Positions 30,055 through 38,962 of a stretch of 64,000 nt of DNA are shown piece after piece. The notes beneath the pieces were generated by a model. It was not told where the DNA came from. It saw only the letters and a program-made list of their open reading frames with translations, and made no database searches. Numbering within the stretch: position 1 is the first letter of the stretch; every line of letters begins with the position of its first letter. Both the position numbers and the translations under genes were made by a program. The stretch is taken from assembly GCF_016629525.1 (NCBI RefSeq), contig NZ_AP024269.1, positions 1,612,001 to 1,676,000 on the forward strand. Direction: 5' to 3'. Source of the DNA: Kaistia sp. 32K (GTDB taxonomy: Bacteria; Pseudomonadota; Alphaproteobacteria; Rhizobiales; Kaistiaceae).

Positions 30055-31239
30055 TCAATCAGGAAAACCATCGTCTATGTCCCATCCGTCAGAAGGTATG
30101 GGACTAGGCAGCATTCGCCCCTCTTTCTCGATACGCCGGATGTTCTCGGCCATCCACGCAGCCTTTGCACGCTCCCTCCGCAAAGCCTCCTGGCTATAGA
30201 TGTACAGGCTCAAATCTCCGGTCCAACGGCCATGGCCTTCAAGATCAAAATCGACCTTCAGACGCAGACGTTCATCAACAAGCGTTGCGTCCGGGATCCG
30301 CACGCCGAGGACCTGCCTAACATACAGCAAGGGGGGGTATTCGCTGGTTTGTCTTCCGAGCCTGGCTGGAGCGGGAATGCAGGCGAGACGTACCAGTTCG
30401 CACTTCACGAGATGCTCAAACCAGGTCGAGTCGCGTAACAATTCATAAAGCTCGGAAAGGTGGCTTCCGCCCTCCATATCGGCAAACCAGGTGCCGGTCG
30501 GCTGCTCAAGGACCATCTCAAAGGTCTGGTTCCAGTACTCTTCTCCGAAGATCATCTTGCCGGTGTGTCGGTTCATTCCCGCCAGCTCGGACGCTGGCCG
30601 GCGGCGGGCATCGGGCAGCCATTGAAACGCCATGCTCCACGCTGCTCCTTCCCGAGCGACTTCTGGTGCTTCAGCAAGGAGGCCGCCGAGGCCGAGTTCA
30701 CTCAGTAGAACGTATCGGGACAGCGGCGACTGAGCGTCAAAACGGCGGACGAAAGCGAAAAGATCCTCGGCGGAACCGAGCAAGAAGAACGCCAAGTGCA
30801 GGACGACGCCGGACGCATTGAAGCGGACAACTTGCCCACCAGCGACGATATTAGGCCCGATGGCAATCAGCCCGACTTCGGTCTCGATGCGCGTTCCCAA
30901 GCGGGCGAATTCGGTGTGGTCACGCCGGATGCGCTTCAGGGTTTCGGCTGGAAAGCGCACGTCATCTCGATCAACGATCCCGTCGCAACCACGGCACAAC
31001 CATATTCCGTTGTCGATACCTGATCTTTGCTCTGGTGTGAGCGAAGCATCGTATCGTCTCGCGCCCTGTCCCGGCGCTGCTGCGGTGATGTGGGACGCGA
31101 TACCGACGTTCATAAATGAAGCAGGCGACTCGTCGCTAGGCCCAATCGTCGGCGTCTTGCAGATTGAACAGCGATGCCCTGCACGGCCTGCGAGAGCCCT
31201 CTTCGTTGCCTCAGAGAATTCGTCTCGATTTGAACTCAC
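30055..31239 (-). CDS. HNH-type protein with uncharacterised C-terminal half
   Basis: About 394 aa. The GTG at 31239 is chosen as start because AAAGAGG lies seven bases upstream and the protein then begins SSNRDEFSEATKRALAGRAGHRCSIC, the usual opening of this HNH family. Residues 20-110 form a zinc-stabilised HNH module: C24-x-x-C27, H50 in IASHITAAAP, N77 in GIDNGIWLC, C82-x-x-C85 and D90. Proteins with this module often occur in bacterial defence loci or next to variable domains. Residues 120-394 are not a domain I recognise; one segment (EQPTGTWFADMEGGSHLSEL) vaguely recalls gp25-like baseplate proteins, which is a guess. Base composition is visibly less GC-rich than in neighbouring genes. 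The gene stands alone. Confidence 0.75.
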   Translation of the reverse strand: MSSNRDEFSEATKRALAGRAGHRCSICKTPTIGPSDESPASFMNVGIASHITAAAPGQGARRYDASLTPEQRSGIDNGIWLCRGCDGIVDRDDVRFPAETLKRIRRDHTEFARLGTRIETEVGLIAIGPNIVAGGQVVRFNASGVVLHLAFFLLGSAEDLFAFVRRFDAQSPLSRYVLLSELGLGGLLAEAPEVAREGAAWSMAFQWLPDARRRPASELAGMNRHTGKMIFGEEYWNQTFEMVLEQPTGTWFADMEGGSHLSELYELLRDSTWFEHLVKCELVRLACIPAPARLGRQTSEYPPLLYVRQVLGVRIPDATLVDERLRLKVDFDLEGHGRWTGDLSLYIYSQEALRRERAKAAWMAENIRRIEKEGRMLPSPIPSDGWDIDDGFPD

Positions 31240-31471
31240 GATTTGGCCTCTTTGACTTGAGCTGCTGATAGTACCCTCTGCTCGCAAAACTTTCATGGAT
31301 TGTGCCGTTCCGACAGCATCATCATCGAAATGAGCTGAACGGTTCCATCAGCAGCTCCATCGGCGTCGAGCCGGAGCCCGCCGGATCGGCCGTTGTCGAA
31401 TTCCGCTCCGCCCGTCCGTCGTGGCAGGGAAGGCGGGGCGGAAGGCCCGGCCGTGGGCTTCAGGAGGCGTC

Positions 31472-31967: not shown

Positions 31968-33191
31968 TCACTCCGCCGACGCTTCCGCCGGCTTGCGGCC
32001 CGGGCGCACCAGGAACAGCAGCAGCGCGATGAAGCCGGCCGCGACCGAGAAGGGCAGCGCCTCGGCGCCGAAGAGGTCCATCAGCAGGCCGATCGGCGTT
32101 GAGCCGATGACGGAGCCGGCCGAATAGGCCATGGCGAAGCCGGTCGAGACGACGGCGAGCCGCTGGCCGCGATAATCCTGGCCGATCAGCACGATGCCGA
32201 GCGTGTAGAGGCCGGATACCGTGCCGCCGGCGAGGAAGATCACCGGCTCGAGCAGGAACGTCCTGTCGATGACGAGCGGGAAGGCCAGCGTGCTGACGAC
32301 GGCGAGCACGGCGCAGCCGATCAGCGTCAGCCGGCGGCCGTGCCGGTCGGCGAACCAGCCGAGCGCCACGATCAGCACCGCCTCGCCGAGGCTGAACACG
32401 GCGACCAGGCGCGAGGCGCCGGCGTCGGTCAGCCCGTGCGCGAGGCCATAGAGCGGCAGCAGGCTCTGCATCGCCGTCTCGCCGATGCCGGTCAGGAAGG
32501 CGGCGGCGATCAGGCTGCCGGCGAGCGTGAGGGACATCCGCAGCGTGTGGGCGTTGCCGCTCTCTTCCTCGTCCTCGACCTCGCCGACCGCCGAGCGGAT
32601 CGACAGCGCCACGGCGACGCCGATGGCGAGCGGCACCATCGCGGCGACGAGCGGCAGGCTGCCGGTCGAGCCGGTGCCGCTGAGGAGCAGCGGGCCCATG
32701 AACTGGCAGGCGGCATAGAGCGTGCCCGATGCACCGACGATGCGCCCGCGATTCTTGTCGTCGACGACGCCGTTCAGCCAGATCTCCGTCGTGGTCCAGA
32801 GCGCCGAGAAGCAGGTTCCCATGACGAAGCGCGCCACGAACCAGACGACGATGTCGTCGAAGACGAGGATGGCCGCGAAGGAGGCGAGCGACAGCGCGAA
32901 CTGCGCCGCCACCAGCAGGCGAAGGCCCATCCGGTCGATCAGCCAGGGCACGAAGGGGCCGAAGATCAGGATGCCGGCGCCGGCGATCGAGGCATTGAGG
33001 CCGATCAGCCAGGTGGCGATGCCCTTCTTTTCCAGCGCGAGCGAGAAGAACGGATAGGAATAGCCGAACAGCAGCGCCTCGATGCCGATCAGCAGCAGGA
33101 TGCCGGCGACGCGCCAGTAGCGGGTTCGCGCGACGGTGGACTTGGAGGCGGCAGGCTTCGCAGCGGCAGACTTGGTATCTTGGGACGGCAT
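31968..33191 (-). CDS. MFS transporter
   Basis: About 407 aa with twelve predicted helices in two halves and a basic Ala/Lys-rich N-terminal tail of about 27 residues. The ATG at 33191 overlaps the stop of the SET-domain gene (TGATG), so the two are translationally coupled; the frame stays open upstream but that part overlaps the SET gene and is noise. Conserved points include FVARFVMGTCFSALWTTTEIWLNG and WFADRHGRR, the loop-type MFS motif. The gene order looks like export or uptake of a compound handled by the two upstream proteins. Substrate is not inferable from the sequence. Confidence 0.93.
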   Translation of the reverse strand: MPSQDTKSAAAKPAASKSTVARTRYWRVAGILLLIGIEALLFGYSYPFFSLALEKKGIATWLIGLNASIAGAGILIFGPFVPWLIDRMGLRLLVAAQFALSLASFAAILVFDDIVVWFVARFVMGTCFSALWTTTEIWLNGVVDDKNRGRIVGASGTLYAACQFMGPLLLSGTGSTGSLPLVAAMVPLAIGVAVALSIRSAVGEVEDEEESGNAHTLRMSLTLAGSLIAAAFLTGIGETAMQSLLPLYGLAHGLTDAGASRLVAVFSLGEAVLIVALGWFADRHGRRLTLIGCAVLAVVSTLAFPLVIDRTFLLEPVIFLAGGTVSGLYTLGIVLIGQDYRGQRLAVVSTGFAMAYSAGSVIGSTPIGLLMDLFGAEALPFSVAAGFIALLLFLVRPGRKPAEASAE

Positions 33192-33604
33192 CAGATCTCG
33201 CAGAGAGGCTCGGGGCACCAGCACCGGATACCCTGCGGCACCAGGTCGAACGTCCGGTAGTCGGCGGTCAGTTCCTCGCCTTCCTGGATCTCGCGATCGG
33301 CGAAGACATAGAGCTGATCCTCCACCCGCGTGTTCGGGTGGCAGGAATGGTTGAGGAAGTCGATGCCGGCGGGCTCTTCCATCGGCAGCAGGCAGAGCAG
33401 CTTGCGGCCGATCAGCTTCAGATGCACCGACTGGCGCCACCAGTAGTCGTCGAGCTCGTCCTGCTTGTCGAGATCGATCAAGAGCGCCTTGCCGTCGAAG
33501 AAGCCGAGCAGCGTATCCTTCGGGATGACGGCGCTGGCGTGGATCGTCTTGTGATCGTCGCTGATCGCGCGGACCTCGATGACCTCGTCGTTCGTGTAGC
33601 TCAT
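33191..33604 (-). CDS. SET-domain protein-lysine methyltransferase with post-SET zinc motif
   Basis: 137 aa, single domain. The SET core is complete: NHSCHPN (85-91), the SAM/knot motif, and catalytic Y116 in GEELTADYRTFD. The C-terminal C128-x-C130-x4-C135 is a canonical post-SET zinc cluster that would pair with C88. AGGA precedes the ATG at 33604. It lies four bases after the unknown 310-aa gene and overlaps the MFS gene, so the three form one operon. In bacteria such small SET proteins methylate lysines of unknown protein targets; here the likely partners are the operon neighbours, which is inference. Confidence 0.9.
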   Translation of the reverse strand: MSYTNDEVIEVRAISDDHKTIHASAVIPKDTLLGFFDGKALLIDLDKQDELDDYWWRQSVHLKLIGRKLLCLLPMEEPAGIDFLNHSCHPNTRVEDQLYVFADREIQEGEELTADYRTFDLVPQGIRCWCPEPLCEI

Positions 33605-33608
33605 GCGA

Positions 33609-34541
33609 TCACTTCCTGAAGTCGAAAGCTGGGATACCGCCGGACTGTCCGTCGCGGCTTGCCTGGTAGCGTTGTCCGTCGAATAGCGCGGCGAGCCAGC
33701 GCTCGCAAAGCCGGTTCGCATAGACGATGGGCATTTCGTGGTCGTGCGGCTCCTTGGCGAGCTCGGCGAACACCGGATCGTTGTGCGGCGCCGTCCAGGA
33801 TTGCTGGTCGTCCGAAAGATGGACCGCGCGCTCGAAGGTCGCGGAGATCTTCTGGTAGCCCTGGATGGTGTTGATCGACATCTTCTGCCAGGCGGTGGCG
33901 CATTTGTGTAAGAGCCGCTCCAGCTCGCGCCGCTCGGTGACCTCGTGCGGCGCGCAGTGGAAATGGCGCTGGCAGAGGTCGCGCACCAGCATGCCGAAGG
34001 CGAAGGCGTCGGACGTCGTGTTGATGGCGAGGAACGGCGTGCTCAGCGCCGGGTCGTAGAGCGGGTCGGCGACGACGGCGGCATGCGGGCAGAAGGCGAC
34101 CGGGAAGAACTCGTAGACGGTCGGGATCCCCGTCACCGGGCAGGTGACCTCGAACGGGATCGCCACGGTCTCGCTGTTCACCAACGCGCCGGCGCTCTCG
34201 GCCAGGCCGGCATCGACCATGATCTGGGCGAGCAGGCGCAGTTCGTCTTCCGAATTGGTAAAGCTCCGCTGCGTCTCCACGATCGCCAGGAAGCCGGTCT
34301 TCCGGTAGTCCTCGACGTCGAGGCGGAAGGCGTTGAGCGCCTCGGAGAACTGGTAGCCGTTGCGGACATGGGCGACCGTGTAGCGGCCGAGCTGGAACTC
34401 GCGCTTGCCGGCGGAGCAGCGCAGATCCGCCTGCAGCCAGTCGTCGAATTCGCTATTCGTCGGTACTTTGGGATGAAATGGGCAACCGACAGCGCCCGAA
34501 GACGCTATCCCAGCCGAATCATCATCCGGTGGGAAGTTCAT
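33609..34541 (-). CDS. Unknown Cys/His-containing protein, first gene of the SET-MFS operon
   Basis: 310 aa, no signal peptide or membrane helix. I do not recognise the family. Visible features are an N-terminal GCPFHPKVP motif (19-27), a second CPVTGIPTVYEFFPVAFCPHAA segment (two Cys and a His) and a CQRHFHCAPHEV segment, so metal or cofactor binding is conceivable. The remainder is mixed alpha/beta and soluble in appearance. The stop lies four bases before the SET-domain start, and the operon continues into the MFS gene. A weak GGGGG precedes the ATG. It is probably expressed from the AT-rich region upstream (34560-34660). Confidence 0.8.
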   Translation of the reverse strand: MNFPPDDDSAGIASSGAVGCPFHPKVPTNSEFDDWLQADLRCSAGKREFQLGRYTVAHVRNGYQFSEALNAFRLDVEDYRKTGFLAIVETQRSFTNSEDELRLLAQIMVDAGLAESAGALVNSETVAIPFEVTCPVTGIPTVYEFFPVAFCPHAAVVADPLYDPALSTPFLAINTTSDAFAFGMLVRDLCQRHFHCAPHEVTERRELERLLHKCATAWQKMSINTIQGYQKISATFERAVHLSDDQQSWTAPHNDPVFAELAKEPHDHEMPIVYANRLCERWLAALFDGQRYQASRDGQSGGIPAFDFRK

Positions 34542-34831
34542 GTTGCCCCCGCAGCGCTACCCAGACTTTAAATGGACGTGATTGCATCGAAATTGGAGAC
34601 ATAATCAAAGCAATGTCAACCATATTATAGACAAGTCTACTGATCTATTTCCTGTGTCTCTCCGCCGGTTCCGAAGGGGAGGCGGCGGCCAGCCGACCGC
34701 ATTGCATCGTGCCTTCACAGTCGCCCCCGCGCTCGGTCTGGTCGGTTCGCCAGCGATCGCTAAAATCGTCGTAAACCGGTTAAGGCCGCATAAAAGGCTG
34801 ATGCCTAGGGTAGCGTCGAAAGAAAAACGAG
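34542..34831. other. AT-rich intergenic region, probable divergent promoters
   Basis: The 290 bases between the SET-MFS operon and the first CHASE4 gene include a visibly AT-rich patch at about 34560-34660, unusual in this window. On the minus strand it contains a TATAAT (34629-34624) and a TTGACA (34619-34614), but not spaced as one promoter. It is likely the promoter region for the minus-strand operon. No gene seen. Confidence 0.4.
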
Positions 34832-37060
34832 ATGGACACGCGACGCATGTCTCACCCGATCGCCGGGCGAATTACATTCAATCTGGTAGCCGGCATTGTC
34901 GTCACGATCGTGACGGTCATCTCGGGCGTCGCCTGGATGGCCTATCGCCAGAACGATCAGGCCGCTGAACAGACGCGCACGATGGTGATGGGCGGCGTCG
35001 ATGCGATGCATACCCGTGTCCAGGGTCTCGCCAACGACTACTCGTGGTGGGAGGAGGCCTATGACGCCTATCTCCGCGACGACAACGCCTGGATCGAGGC
35101 GAATATCGGCACCGGCATCATCGACACCCAGATCGCCGATTTCCTGGCGATCATCTCGCCCGACCGCGAGCTGAAATATGGCTGGTGGACGCCGGCCGAC
35201 GCGCCGAATTCCGAAACGGTGATGTCGCCGAAGCTGATCGCCAAGATCGAGGAGCTGATCCGCACCGCGCCGATCGAGAACAACGCGGCGCGCTCCTCCT
35301 ATGTCGAGACCGCCGCCGGCACGCTGCTCTTCGCGGTGTCGCGCATCGCCCCCGTGTCGAAAGTCGACACCGTCAAGGCCGAGAATCTCCCGGTCCTGGT
35401 CATGGGCTTCTATCTGAGCAACCAGCGCCTGTCGGAGCTCGGCCGCACCTTCCTCATCAACGATCTCCGCCTCGAGCGCGAGAACCTCGACAAGCTGGAC
35501 AATGATTTTCCGGAGATCCGCGACATCTATGGCGAGGTGATCGGCCGCTTCGTTTGGACGCCGCCGACGCCCGGCTTCGCGGTGCTGCGCAATGTCGTGG
35601 CGCCGATCGCCGGCGGCCTGCTGCTGTTCTGTCTGATCGCGATGTGGACCGTGCTCAGGGCGCGGCGCCTCGCCCTTTCGCAGGCGCTGAGCGAGCGCCA
35701 GGCCGTCACCGCGGCGCGCACCGACAGCCTGACCGGTCTCACCAACCGTTACGGCTTCAACGAGCTGAGCGACAGCGCCCAGTTCAGCGATGCCTGCGAT
35801 GCCGGCGAGGCGGCGATCATCTATCTCGACGTCAACGGCTTCAAGTCGGTCAACGATTCGATCGGCCATGCGGGCGGCGACGAGCTGGTGGGGCTGCTCG
35901 CCGAGCGGCTGTCGATGATCCTGCCGCCCGACGCCCGCTTCGCCCGCGTCGGCGGCGACGAGTTCGCCGTGGCGCTGACCGGCCGTTCCGCCTCGGCGGC
36001 CGTCGCCGGCGTCGCGTCGGCCATGGTGCACGCGCTCGACCAGCCCTTCAGCGTCGCCGGCTTCCAGTTCCAGGTGACGGCGGCGGTCGGCTATGCCGTT
36101 TCCGACGGCAACGAGGTGACGCCGGCCGAGCTGCTGCGCCGCGCCGACCTCGCCATGTACCAGGCGAAGAACGCCGCCGAGCGCGATGCGGTGCCCTATC
36201 ATTCGGGCTTGGAGACCGGCGCGCTGCACCGCAAGCGGCTCGGCATGGCGCTGCGCGGCGCCATCGAGGGCAACGAGCTCTCGGTCGCCTACCAGCCGAT
36301 CGTGCGGGCGAGCGACCTCGCCATCGTCTCGGTCGAGGCGCTGGTCCGCTGGGACTCGAAGGAGTTCGGCCGCGTCTCGCCGGCCGAGTTCATCCCGGTC
36401 GCCGAGGAGACCGGCGTCATCCACGACATCGGCAAGTTCGTGTTCCAGCGCGCCTGCCAGGACATGATCGAATGGCCGGGCCTGAAGATGTCGATCAACG
36501 TCTCGCCGGCGCAGCTGCGCGATCCGAGTTTCGCCAACGATCTCGGCGCGATCGCCCGCCGGCATGACGTCGTGCCGAACCGCTTCAAGCTGGAGCTCAC
36601 CGAAGGGCTCTTGGTGCGCAACCCGACCATCGCCAAGCGCAAGCTGGCGCGGCTGAAATCGATGGGCTTCGGCCTGTCGCTGGATGATTTCGGCACCGGC
36701 TTCTCCTCGATCGGCTATCTGCGCCAGTTCCCGTTCGACTGGCTGAAGATCGACAAATCCTTCATCTCGGAGCTCGGCACCAACCCGACCGCCAACGCGC
36801 TGATCCAGTCGATGATCGCGCTCGGCGACGCCATGGACATCGCCGTCGTCGCCGAGGGCATCGAGACGGTCGAGCAGCTGCAGCTGCTGCGCCTGCTGCA
36901 ATGCGAGTACGTCCAGGGCTTCCACCTGGCCAAGCCGATGTCGGCGGCCGAGATCACCGCGCTTCTCGCCGGCCTCGGCGAAAGCCGGCGCCTGTTTCCC
37001 GACCTGGCGCCGCCGCCGATGCTGGACAAGGACCGCCTGATCAACCTCGTGCAGTCCTGA
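34832..37060 (+). CDS. CHASE4-GGDEF-EAL cyclic-di-GMP protein
   Basis: 742 aa. Two membrane helices (about 14-37 and 249-270) bracket a periplasmic CHASE4-type sensor (NDYSWWEEAYDAYLRDD, DTQIADFLAIISPD). The cytoplasmic part has a GGDEF domain with an intact GGDEF at 374-378 and an EAL domain with EAL at 502-504, plus DDFGTGFSSIGYLRQ and AEGIETVEQLQLL. Both motifs are intact, so synthesis and hydrolysis of cyclic-di-GMP are both possible. No I-site RxxD is visible before GGDEF. The start could also be the ATG at 34847. It is one of two such proteins in the window. Confidence 0.93.
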   Translation: MDTRRMSHPIAGRITFNLVAGIVVTIVTVISGVAWMAYRQNDQAAEQTRTMVMGGVDAMHTRVQGLANDYSWWEEAYDAYLRDDNAWIEANIGTGIIDTQIADFLAIISPDRELKYGWWTPADAPNSETVMSPKLIAKIEELIRTAPIENNAARSSYVETAAGTLLFAVSRIAPVSKVDTVKAENLPVLVMGFYLSNQRLSELGRTFLINDLRLERENLDKLDNDFPEIRDIYGEVIGRFVWTPPTPGFAVLRNVVAPIAGGLLLFCLIAMWTVLRARRLALSQALSERQAVTAARTDSLTGLTNRYGFNELSDSAQFSDACDAGEAAIIYLDVNGFKSVNDSIGHAGGDELVGLLAERLSMILPPDARFARVGGDEFAVALTGRSASAAVAGVASAMVHALDQPFSVAGFQFQVTAAVGYAVSDGNEVTPAELLRRADLAMYQAKNAAERDAVPYHSGLETGALHRKRLGMALRGAIEGNELSVAYQPIVRASDLAIVSVEALVRWDSKEFGRVSPAEFIPVAEETGVIHDIGKFVFQRACQDMIEWPGLKMSINVSPAQLRDPSFANDLGAIARRHDVVPNRFKLELTEGLLVRNPTIAKRKLARLKSMGFGLSLDDFGTGFSSIGYLRQFPFDWLKIDKSFISELGTNPTANALIQSMIALGDAMDIAVVAEGIETVEQLQLLRLLQCEYVQGFHLAKPMSAAEITALLAGLGESRRLFPDLAPPPMLDKDRLINLVQS

Positions 37061-37075: not shown

Positions 37076-37717
37076 CACCTCTCCCTGAGGGAGAGGTCGG
37101 AGCGAAGCTCCGGGTGAGGGTTTAGGAAACTCTCCGGTGAGGCCGTAAACCCTCACCCGCCGGCCTACTGCCATCGACCTCTCCCTCAGGGAGAGGTGAG
37201 AGGAGAGCGTCCTGGATTATGGGCCCAGACACCAAGGGCAGGACACCGTCGCCCCGGCGGAGGCCGGGGGCCATGAACACCGACCAGGAAAGCTTGGCCG
37301 AGCCTATCGGCCACAGGCCGGTGTGTCTGGATCCCGGCCTTCGCCGGGATGACGGCGGAGCGTGGCGCGGCCGATGGGCTTGTCCTCGCGCCATCTCAAC
37401 ATGAGGGCTCTGTCACCAGCTCTCCCTCCTTAGGAGATCTTCGCGTATCCCTGCCCAGCCGCCGTGCCACGCCCGATCCCCATCATCCTGAGGTGCCCGA
37501 GCGCAGCTCGGGCCTCGAAGGACGCACGGTCGAGGGGCAATCATCGATGGCACAGCCGCTCTGCGTGCTTCGAGACGGCCCTGCGGGCCTCCTCAGCATG
37601 ATGAGGGTGTTGTTTGCACGGTCTCCTGAGCCGAGAGGTGAGGGGCGAGGCGGCTCGAATGGGAGTCGTCCCCCGCCCGCACTGGCTTCGGTCGGGCCGG
37701 CCTGCGATAGTCCGGTC
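37076..37717. repeat. Intergenic block of palindromic repeats
   Basis: The 657-base gap between the first c-di-GMP gene and the glycosylase gene is made of repeats. 37076-37124 and 37146-37200 are inverted arms containing CTCTCCCTGAGGGAGAGG. 37240-37360 is a divergent pair of the CCCCGGC..GGGATGACGG family. 37481-37529 and 37561-37605 are inverted arms of the CATCATCCTGAGGTGC..CTCGAAGGACG family. Open frames across this block are repeat-derived and not genes. Confidence 0.8.
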
Positions 37718-38962
37718 ATGACGGTGCATCCAAGTCTGATTCAGGGATCTCTTTCCGCCGACGAGGCGCGCCGCGTTGCGCTCGCGGCGCAGGGCTTCGG
37801 CGGCGGCCGCGACGCCACGCCGGCGCAGTGGCGGCGGCTCGCGCCGCTGGTCGAGCGGATGGGGCTGCTGCAGCTCGATTCGGTCAATGTGCTGGTCCGC
37901 TCGCACTACCTGCCCCTGTTCAGCCGGCTCGGCGCCTATTCCCGCGCCGCCCTCGACGAGCGCGCCTTCGCGGGCGGGGCCAAGCGGGCGCTGTTCGAAT
38001 ACTGGGCGCATGAGGCCTCGCTGCTGCCGCTCGACTATTACCCGCTGATGCGATGGCGGATGAAGCGCGCCGCCGCCGGGGTCGGCATCTATGGCGGGCT
38101 CGTCACCTTCGCGGCCGAAAACCCCGGTTATCTTCGCGCCGTGATCGACGAGATCGGCCGTCGCGGGCCGCTGGCGGCGAGCGAACTGGACGATCCGGGC
38201 GAGCGCAGCGGTCCCTGGTGGGGGTGGCACAAGGGCAAGACGGCGCTCGAATATCTGTTCTGGACGGGCGAGGTGGCGACGAGCCATCGGCGCGGTTTCG
38301 AGCGCATCTACGACCTCGCCGAGCGTGTCATTCCGTCTGATGTCGCCGGCGCCACCGTGCCGGACGAGGCCGATGCCATTCGCGCCCTGGCGCTTGCCGG
38401 CGCCCGCGCCCATGGCGTGGCGACGGAAATCGACATCCGCGATTATTTCCGCCTGCCCGTCGCCGAGGCGCGGCTGGCGCTGCAACAGCTGGTCGAGGAG
38501 GGGGCGCTTGCCCCGGTGCGCGTCGACGGCTGGAAGCAGCCGGCCTACTTCGCCGTCGAAACCCCGATCCCGAAACGGCTGGCGCCGACGGCGCTGCTGT
38601 CGCCGTTCGACCCGCTGGTCTGGCACCGTCCCCGCACCGAGCGGATCTTCGATTTCCACTACCGGCTGGAATTCTACACGCCGGAGCCGAAGCGGGTCTT
38701 CGGCTATTTCGTCATGCCGTTCCTGCATCGCGGCCGGCTCGAGGCGCGGGTAGACCTGAAGGCGGATCGCGCCGGCGGGCGGCTGCGGGTTCTCGGCGTC
38801 TTCGCCGAGGAGAAGCTGCGCCGGCCGGACGAGATGATCACAGCGCTGGCGCAGGAACTGCGGCGCCTGGCCGGCTGGTTGCAGCTCTCCGACATCGTCG
38901 TCGAGGCGGAGGCGCCGCTCGCCGTCACGCTCCGCGAAGCGCTGCGCACAGCCGACGCCTGA
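37718..38962 (+). CDS. YcaQ-family winged-helix DNA glycosylase (AlkZ-like)
   Basis: 414 aa, starting at the ATG at 37718 that opens MTVHPSLIQGSLSADEARRVALAAQGF. It has three winged-helix motifs and a C-terminal domain, as in AlkZ/YcaQ, which unhook DNA interstrand crosslinks or excise bulky N-alkyl adducts. The catalytic motif reads QLDSVNVLVRSHYLPLFSRLG (Q52, D54). Q-x-D rather than Q-x-Q is the YcaQ-type pattern. Other landmarks are EYWAHEASLLP, GPLAASELDD and LLSPFDPLVWHRPRTERIFDFHYRLEF-type motif. The frame is open upstream only through repeat DNA. Confidence 0.92.
   Translation: MTVHPSLIQGSLSADEARRVALAAQGFGGGRDATPAQWRRLAPLVERMGLLQLDSVNVLVRSHYLPLFSRLGAYSRAALDERAFAGGAKRALFEYWAHEASLLPLDYYPLMRWRMKRAAAGVGIYGGLVTFAAENPGYLRAVIDEIGRRGPLAASELDDPGERSGPWWGWHKGKTALEYLFWTGEVATSHRRGFERIYDLAERVIPSDVAGATVPDEADAIRALALAGARAHGVATEIDIRDYFRLPVAEARLALQQLVEEGALAPVRVDGWKQPAYFAVETPIPKRLAPTALLSPFDPLVWHRPRTERIFDFHYRLEFYTPEPKRVFGYFVMPFLHRGRLEARVDLKADRAGGRLRVLGVFAEEKLRRPDEMITALAQELRRLAGWLQLSDIVVEAEAPLAVTLREALRTADA

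Follow-up and report, generated by a model that had tools for sequence, protein, structure and literature searches.

A three-gene operon on the minus strand of the Kaistia sp. 32K genome encodes a 310-residue protein of no recognized family, here called U310, whose predicted fold and invariant cysteine resemble those of heme-dependent guanidine N-hydroxylases, followed by a SET-domain methyltransferase and a transporter of the major facilitator superfamily (MFS). The operon lies in a stretch of 64,000 nucleotides, hereafter the window (positions 1612001–1676000 of a single-contig 5.35-Mb genome, G000). We lean toward heme-thiolate chemistry for U310 and regard the best-supported mechanism, in which a thiolate-heme oxygenase works with an MFS transporter of its own and, optionally, a methyltransferase, as about evenly poised between right and wrong.

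Predicted Fold and Family Relationships of U310

Predicted models of U310 adopt the sandwich fold of AglA, with a match over 177–185 of the ~240 residues of the AglA domain; many rows for nitric oxide synthase heme domains rank below AglA among the structural matches. Nitric oxide synthase oxidizes arginine at a thiolate-ligated heme. AglA and the YqcI/YcgG enzymes (PF08892) are heme-dependent guanidine N-hydroxylases, which U310 resembles in its predicted sandwich fold and in an invariant Cys after the first helix; it differs from them in its C-terminal part, which is longer and rich in invariant residues, and in its SET and MFS partners. Based on the models, U310 is predicted to have an AglA-type fold, and it probably works like a YqcI/YcgG enzyme. 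The thiolate-heme fold predicted here supports an earlier annotation of this DNA (the initial annotation) in treating U310 as a cofactor enzyme.

That annotation had also been unable to place the 310-residue protein, and database searches bear this out. U310 has no Pfam match at E ≤ 1, a single sub-threshold row in NCBIfam (0.086 and 12.9 bits, where the cut-off is 40), one phmmer row among PDB sequences (E 0.16) and no match among viral structures at E ≤ 0.001; 30 diverse members scanned singly gave scattered chance matches and nothing more. Protein searches returned 188 clusters, or 218 with an alignment as the query, and no Pfam domain is present in the best 120 listed of either set. Among titles and abstract openings we found nothing on the family, most subscription papers being outside reach. 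The profile and structure check proposed for this protein gave no family from profiles and an AglA-like fold from structure prediction.

U310 is rare: a class sample of 385 genomes has it in 4, and an order sample of 397 has it in 23 (G000 counted in each). In a phylum sample of 349 genomes it was found in G000 alone, apart from a single match over 32 residues (19.6 bits), which we regard as chance. The closest named carriers are Kaistia species, at 91 and 90% identity, and a distant subfamily, ~30–34% identical to the window protein where measured, is present in nine genomes. Three of these nine (G033, G162 and G260) also carry ordinary PF08892 proteins, which occur in 12 genomes of a class sample of 289. 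In G774, the U310 frame is split into two open reading frames (L054:7787-8758) and SET is absent, reflecting either decay or an assembly error.

Conserved Residues and the Proposed Heme Ligand

Conservation was assessed in two alignments, A2 (86 U310 sequences) and A6 (30 sequences), with 21 rows common to both. Cys42 is invariant in each (86/86 and 30/30). It follows a helix (residues 29–38) and directly precedes a short helix (43–50) leading to the first strand, and the pattern of a Cys, nine residues, a G, D or N and then a strand is common to U310 and AglA. Judged by eye from topology and spacing, Cys42 occupies the place of AglA Cys44, so that U310 shares this trait of YqcI/YcgG proteins. 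The Cys and His residues invariant in all 86 sequences of A2 are C42, C134, H253 and H268, with counterparts in all 30 of A6, whereas C20 (83/86) and H23 (66/86) of a CPFH motif, C151 (78/86) and H199 (43/86) vary. These variable positions belong to the Cys/His clusters, three in number, from which the initial annotation had suggested a metal or cofactor. Zinc clusters at the CPFH and RHFHCAPH stretches were considered and rejected: both vary among relatives and were therefore not taken as the main site.

The Associated Transporter

The transporter matches PF07690 (2.1e-27, 96.4 bits; cut-off 33.4). The best NCBIfam model for it and for all six neighbors scanned is PRK03633, at only 38–75 bits against a cut-off of 361, which places these proteins outside that equivalog family. 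We compared 29 genomes with U310, comprising 26 from the class and order samples (G000 included) plus L004, L006 and L012. In all 29, MFS adjoins U310 or is separated from it by SET alone, lying downstream on the same strand in 20 and divergently in 9; in L006 the MFS gene runs off the contig, and in L042 it matches in part only. The Kaistia genome itself has 54 MFS matches, and with an estimated ~5000 genes a random gene would have an MFS neighbor ~2% of the time. The proposed tie between U310 and a transporter is thereby strengthened. The suggested U310-SET-MFS order is conserved in part: the U310-MFS association holds throughout, including in 9 of 9 distant genomes, but SET stands between the two genes in 13 of 20 close loci and 0 of 9 distant ones.

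The Bacillus ycgE-ycgF-ycgG genes may be a parallel regulator-exporter-enzyme set, but a literature search on this brought up other subjects, including E. coli genes that bear these names. Ordinary YqcI/YcgG loci have a DUF1989-like gene next to the enzyme gene in five of seven read (L072 and L074–L077), with PF09347 confirmed in L074. One study mentions efflux transporters for operons in which the YqcI/YcgG superfamily is represented (PMC2922099).

The SET Methyltransferase

The SET protein matches PF00856 (2.6e-12, 47.5 bits; cut-off 22.4) and carries NHSC, DYR and a post-SET CxCx4C motif (CWCPEPLC). In an alignment of 32 sequences (A5), N85, H86, D115 and Y116 are invariant and C88, C128, C130 and C135 are present in at least 90%. 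The GxG loop of SET enzymes binds S-adenosylmethionine (SAM). At its place most members read H[KQR][ATGS], aligned with the GRG of MLL, and GxG is missing. The best match among sequences of solved structures is an H3K36 methyltransferase. BurB ranks second of 13 with a single-sequence query and 16th of 43 PDB sequences with a profile. In the profile search it scores 28.8 bits, whereas the best histone methyltransferase reaches 39.9; of the 42 sequences other than BurB, 15 rank higher and 27 lower. BurB is a SET-domain methionine S-methyltransferase that methylates free methionine (PDB 9l4t and 9l4v; PMC12542666) and, like the window protein, is a small single-domain SET protein with a post-SET motif; it has LHSC where the window protein has NHSC. 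This example shows that a SET enzyme can use a free amino acid, and for the window SET protein it shows no more than that a metabolite substrate is possible.

The SET family is compact: 14 of the 397 order-sample genomes score 228–254 bits, and the next best scores 59.7. U310 adjoins SET in 12 of these 14; the other two, G399 and G687, keep MFS, SET and a divergent GGDEF-EAL gene and have no U310 at the locus or elsewhere in the genome. Conversely, 16 of the 29 genomes with U310 lack SET beside it. Each of the two proteins therefore has a role in the absence of the other, and the proposal that the purpose of the gene set is modification of U310 by SET is not supported. A tree of 23 U310 sequences, 19 of them close and 4 from the nine distant genomes, with L054 excluded, requires the SET label to change twice, consistent with one gain and one loss. 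Of the U310 proteins at the 20 close loci, 10 of the 13 accompanied by SET retain CPFH, as do 2 of the 7 without it; since six of the seven SET-less proteins form one clade (the broken L054 frame left out), we do not take this association as a link. The G399 and G687 loci have another small SET gene, oppositely oriented, in the interval from MFS to SET (L109:7431-7823 and L110:6998-7405; Pfam-tested in L109).

Evidence Against the Heme-Thiolate Assignment and Alternative Explanations

Several results weigh against U310 as a thiolate-heme enzyme with its own transporter. The Foldseek E-values for AglA are only 6.2e-3 and 4.5e-3, and TM-scores over the Foldseek AglA alignments are 0.28–0.46, with root-mean-square deviations of 8.6–10.2. 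The two U310 models are not independent, because the alignment used for the first already contains 21 of the 30 sequences used for the second. PF08892 is unmatched by U310 and 29 relatives (E ≤ 1) and by three distant relatives (E ≤ 0.1); as a yardstick for sequence similarity, an ordinary PF08892 protein itself reaches AglA only at E 1e-3. Comparison by hhalign of U310 with nine YqcI/YcgG members, with and without an AglA fragment, gave probabilities below 1% from shallow profiles (Neff 2.4–2.9), and a U310 profile searched against PDB sequences returned three ubiquitin-ligase rows (E 0.28 or worse) and not AglA. Of the heme-carboxylate residues of AglA that were compared (Arg166, Lys196 and Arg200), only the Arg166 region could be aligned, and Arg166 has no invariant counterpart in U310: between the strands at F145 and N174 there is no invariant basic residue, and the majority consensus has Arg at position 152, where the window protein has Pro. 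Because sequence and profile methods show no link and Arg166 lacks an invariant counterpart, we do not file U310 in PF08892. The MFS link, finally, is positional, and the margin over a second MFS protein of the same genome is small.

U310 could serve detoxification instead of biosynthesis, oxidizing a foreign or stress compound that MFS then expels and that, in most distant loci, MarR senses. This is rather unlikely in our judgment. In six of the nine distant genomes a MarR homologue adjoins U310 (Pfam-tested in two), and all nine have a divergent MFS gene; however, two MarR queries found none at the close loci fetched, and the many invariant residues of U310 suggest one definite substrate. 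The MarR proteins beside distant U310 genes at L043:8756-9412 and L046:6923-7582 carry at their C-terminal end a cluster of Cys residues (CRxCxLExCPQExCxV) that may serve to sense a metal or redox state.

A non-heme metal in the same fold, with C42, C134, H253 and H268 forming a structural or redox-active Zn or Fe site, would explain why precisely these two Cys and two His residues persist in every sequence of both alignments. AglA, however, with the matched fold, ligates heme by a Cys at the Cys42 place and likewise has a Cys (145) near that of C134, and we consider this explanation unlikely. Equally doubtful is the idea that SET methylates lysines in proteins and in this way regulates U310 or the transporter. 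The genes overlap or nearly touch, NHSC, DY and the post-SET motif are retained, and the best match of known structure is a histone methyltransferase; against this stand the SET-less genomes with U310 and MFS, the two genomes with SET and MFS and no U310, and the H[KQR][ATGS] reading at the SAM-binding GxG place.

Inherited synteny with no common function is improbable: the divergent GGDEF-EAL gene is common to 18 of 18 close U310 loci read (with no match to it at distant loci) and an AlkZ-like gene to 15 of 18, and AlkZ occurs in 29 of 32 genomes wherever located (28 over the cut-off), which shows that neighbors can persist without an evident link, but the MFS adjacency survives in other families with a different gene order and without those neighbors.

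Gene Structure and Neighborhood of the Operon

The layout of three minus-strand genes was read directly from the coordinates and agrees with the initial annotation: U310 and SET are 4 bases apart (TCGC), and the SET stop and MFS start overlap as TGATG (Table 1). For SET, the list of open reading frames also offers a 176-residue start; the 137-residue start fits because relatives are mostly 137–142 residues long and begin with MSYT or nearly so. SET is 90–93% identical across four Kaistia loci, and this conservation, together with the invariant residues of U310 in 86 sequences, excludes chance open reading frames.

Table 1. Coordinates of the operon and adjoining features in the window
Feature	Position	Strand	Remarks
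U310	33609..34541	-	310-aa orphan protein; ATG at 34541, TGA at 33611-33609; predicted AglA-like (YqcI/YcgG-type) fold, proposed thiolate-heme oxygenase
Codon of U310 Cys42	34416..34418	-	Putative axial ligand of the heme, in the motif C-x-A-G-[KR]-R
SET-domain methyltransferase	33191..33604	-	137 aa; ATG at 33604, TGA at 33193-33191; NHSC, DY, post-SET CxCx4C
MFS transporter	31968..33191	-	407 aa; ATG at 33191, stop ending at 31968
Divergent intergenic region, putative operon promoter	34542..34831	.	Between U310 and the divergent GGDEF-EAL gene
CHASE4-GGDEF-EAL protein (context only)	34832..37060	+	Pfam match; divergent from U310

The AlkZ-like DNA glycosylase gene of the window (37349-38962, plus strand; PF06224, 4.4e-70) has a second copy in the same genome. 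A role for AlkZ in self-resistance to the U310 product was considered and dropped because AlkZ is widespread, is found in the U310-less G399 and G687, and lies away from U310 in distant genomes. On the other side of the operon, a minus-strand gene (30055-31296) encodes a 413-residue protein without a Pfam family, the N-terminal third of which resembles endonuclease (HNH-type) effectors of candidate defense systems (PADLOC PDC-M68A, 2.5e-15). PADLOC gives no match for U310, SET or MFS, and a phage-defense reading of the operon was rejected.

Proposed Mechanism and Significance

Gene structure, conservation, the predicted fold match and co-location were computed, and from these we infer the heme, the reductase, N-hydroxylation, the direction of transport and the SET substrate in the following scheme. 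U310 would be a strongly diverged relative, or a structural analogue, of the YqcI/YcgG enzymes, binding heme through the Cys42 thiolate between the helices and the central sheet. With electrons from a general reductase it would activate O2 and oxidize a small nitrogen-containing metabolite, most likely by N-hydroxylation, and the MFS transporter would move this metabolite, most likely out of the cell. Where SET is present, in one branch, its tight coupling to the other genes suggests that it contributes a methylation step, the target being either the metabolite or a protein of the pathway; other branches do without SET, and six of the nine distant genomes have a MarR-type regulator gene beside U310. 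Going further, U310 may represent a second, unrecognized branch of thiolate-heme N-oxygenases that escapes the sequence searches applied here and that forms, together with an exporter, a minimal and self-contained pathway. In one lineage a SET enzyme would act on the small molecule itself, so that three genes would suffice to make and secrete a metabolite both N-hydroxylated and methylated; we hold this speculative extension with little confidence.

Should Cys42 of U310 prove to ligate heme, the thiolate-heme class whose structure was described for AglA in 2025 would extend beyond its sequence family, and a family so far without a name, with 218 clusters matched, would gain an activity open to testing. 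Because the MFS partner is constant, the substrate of U310 can be sought among transported small molecules. The optional SET gene offers another natural system for asking whether SET enzymes of bacteria can, like BurB, use metabolites as substrates.
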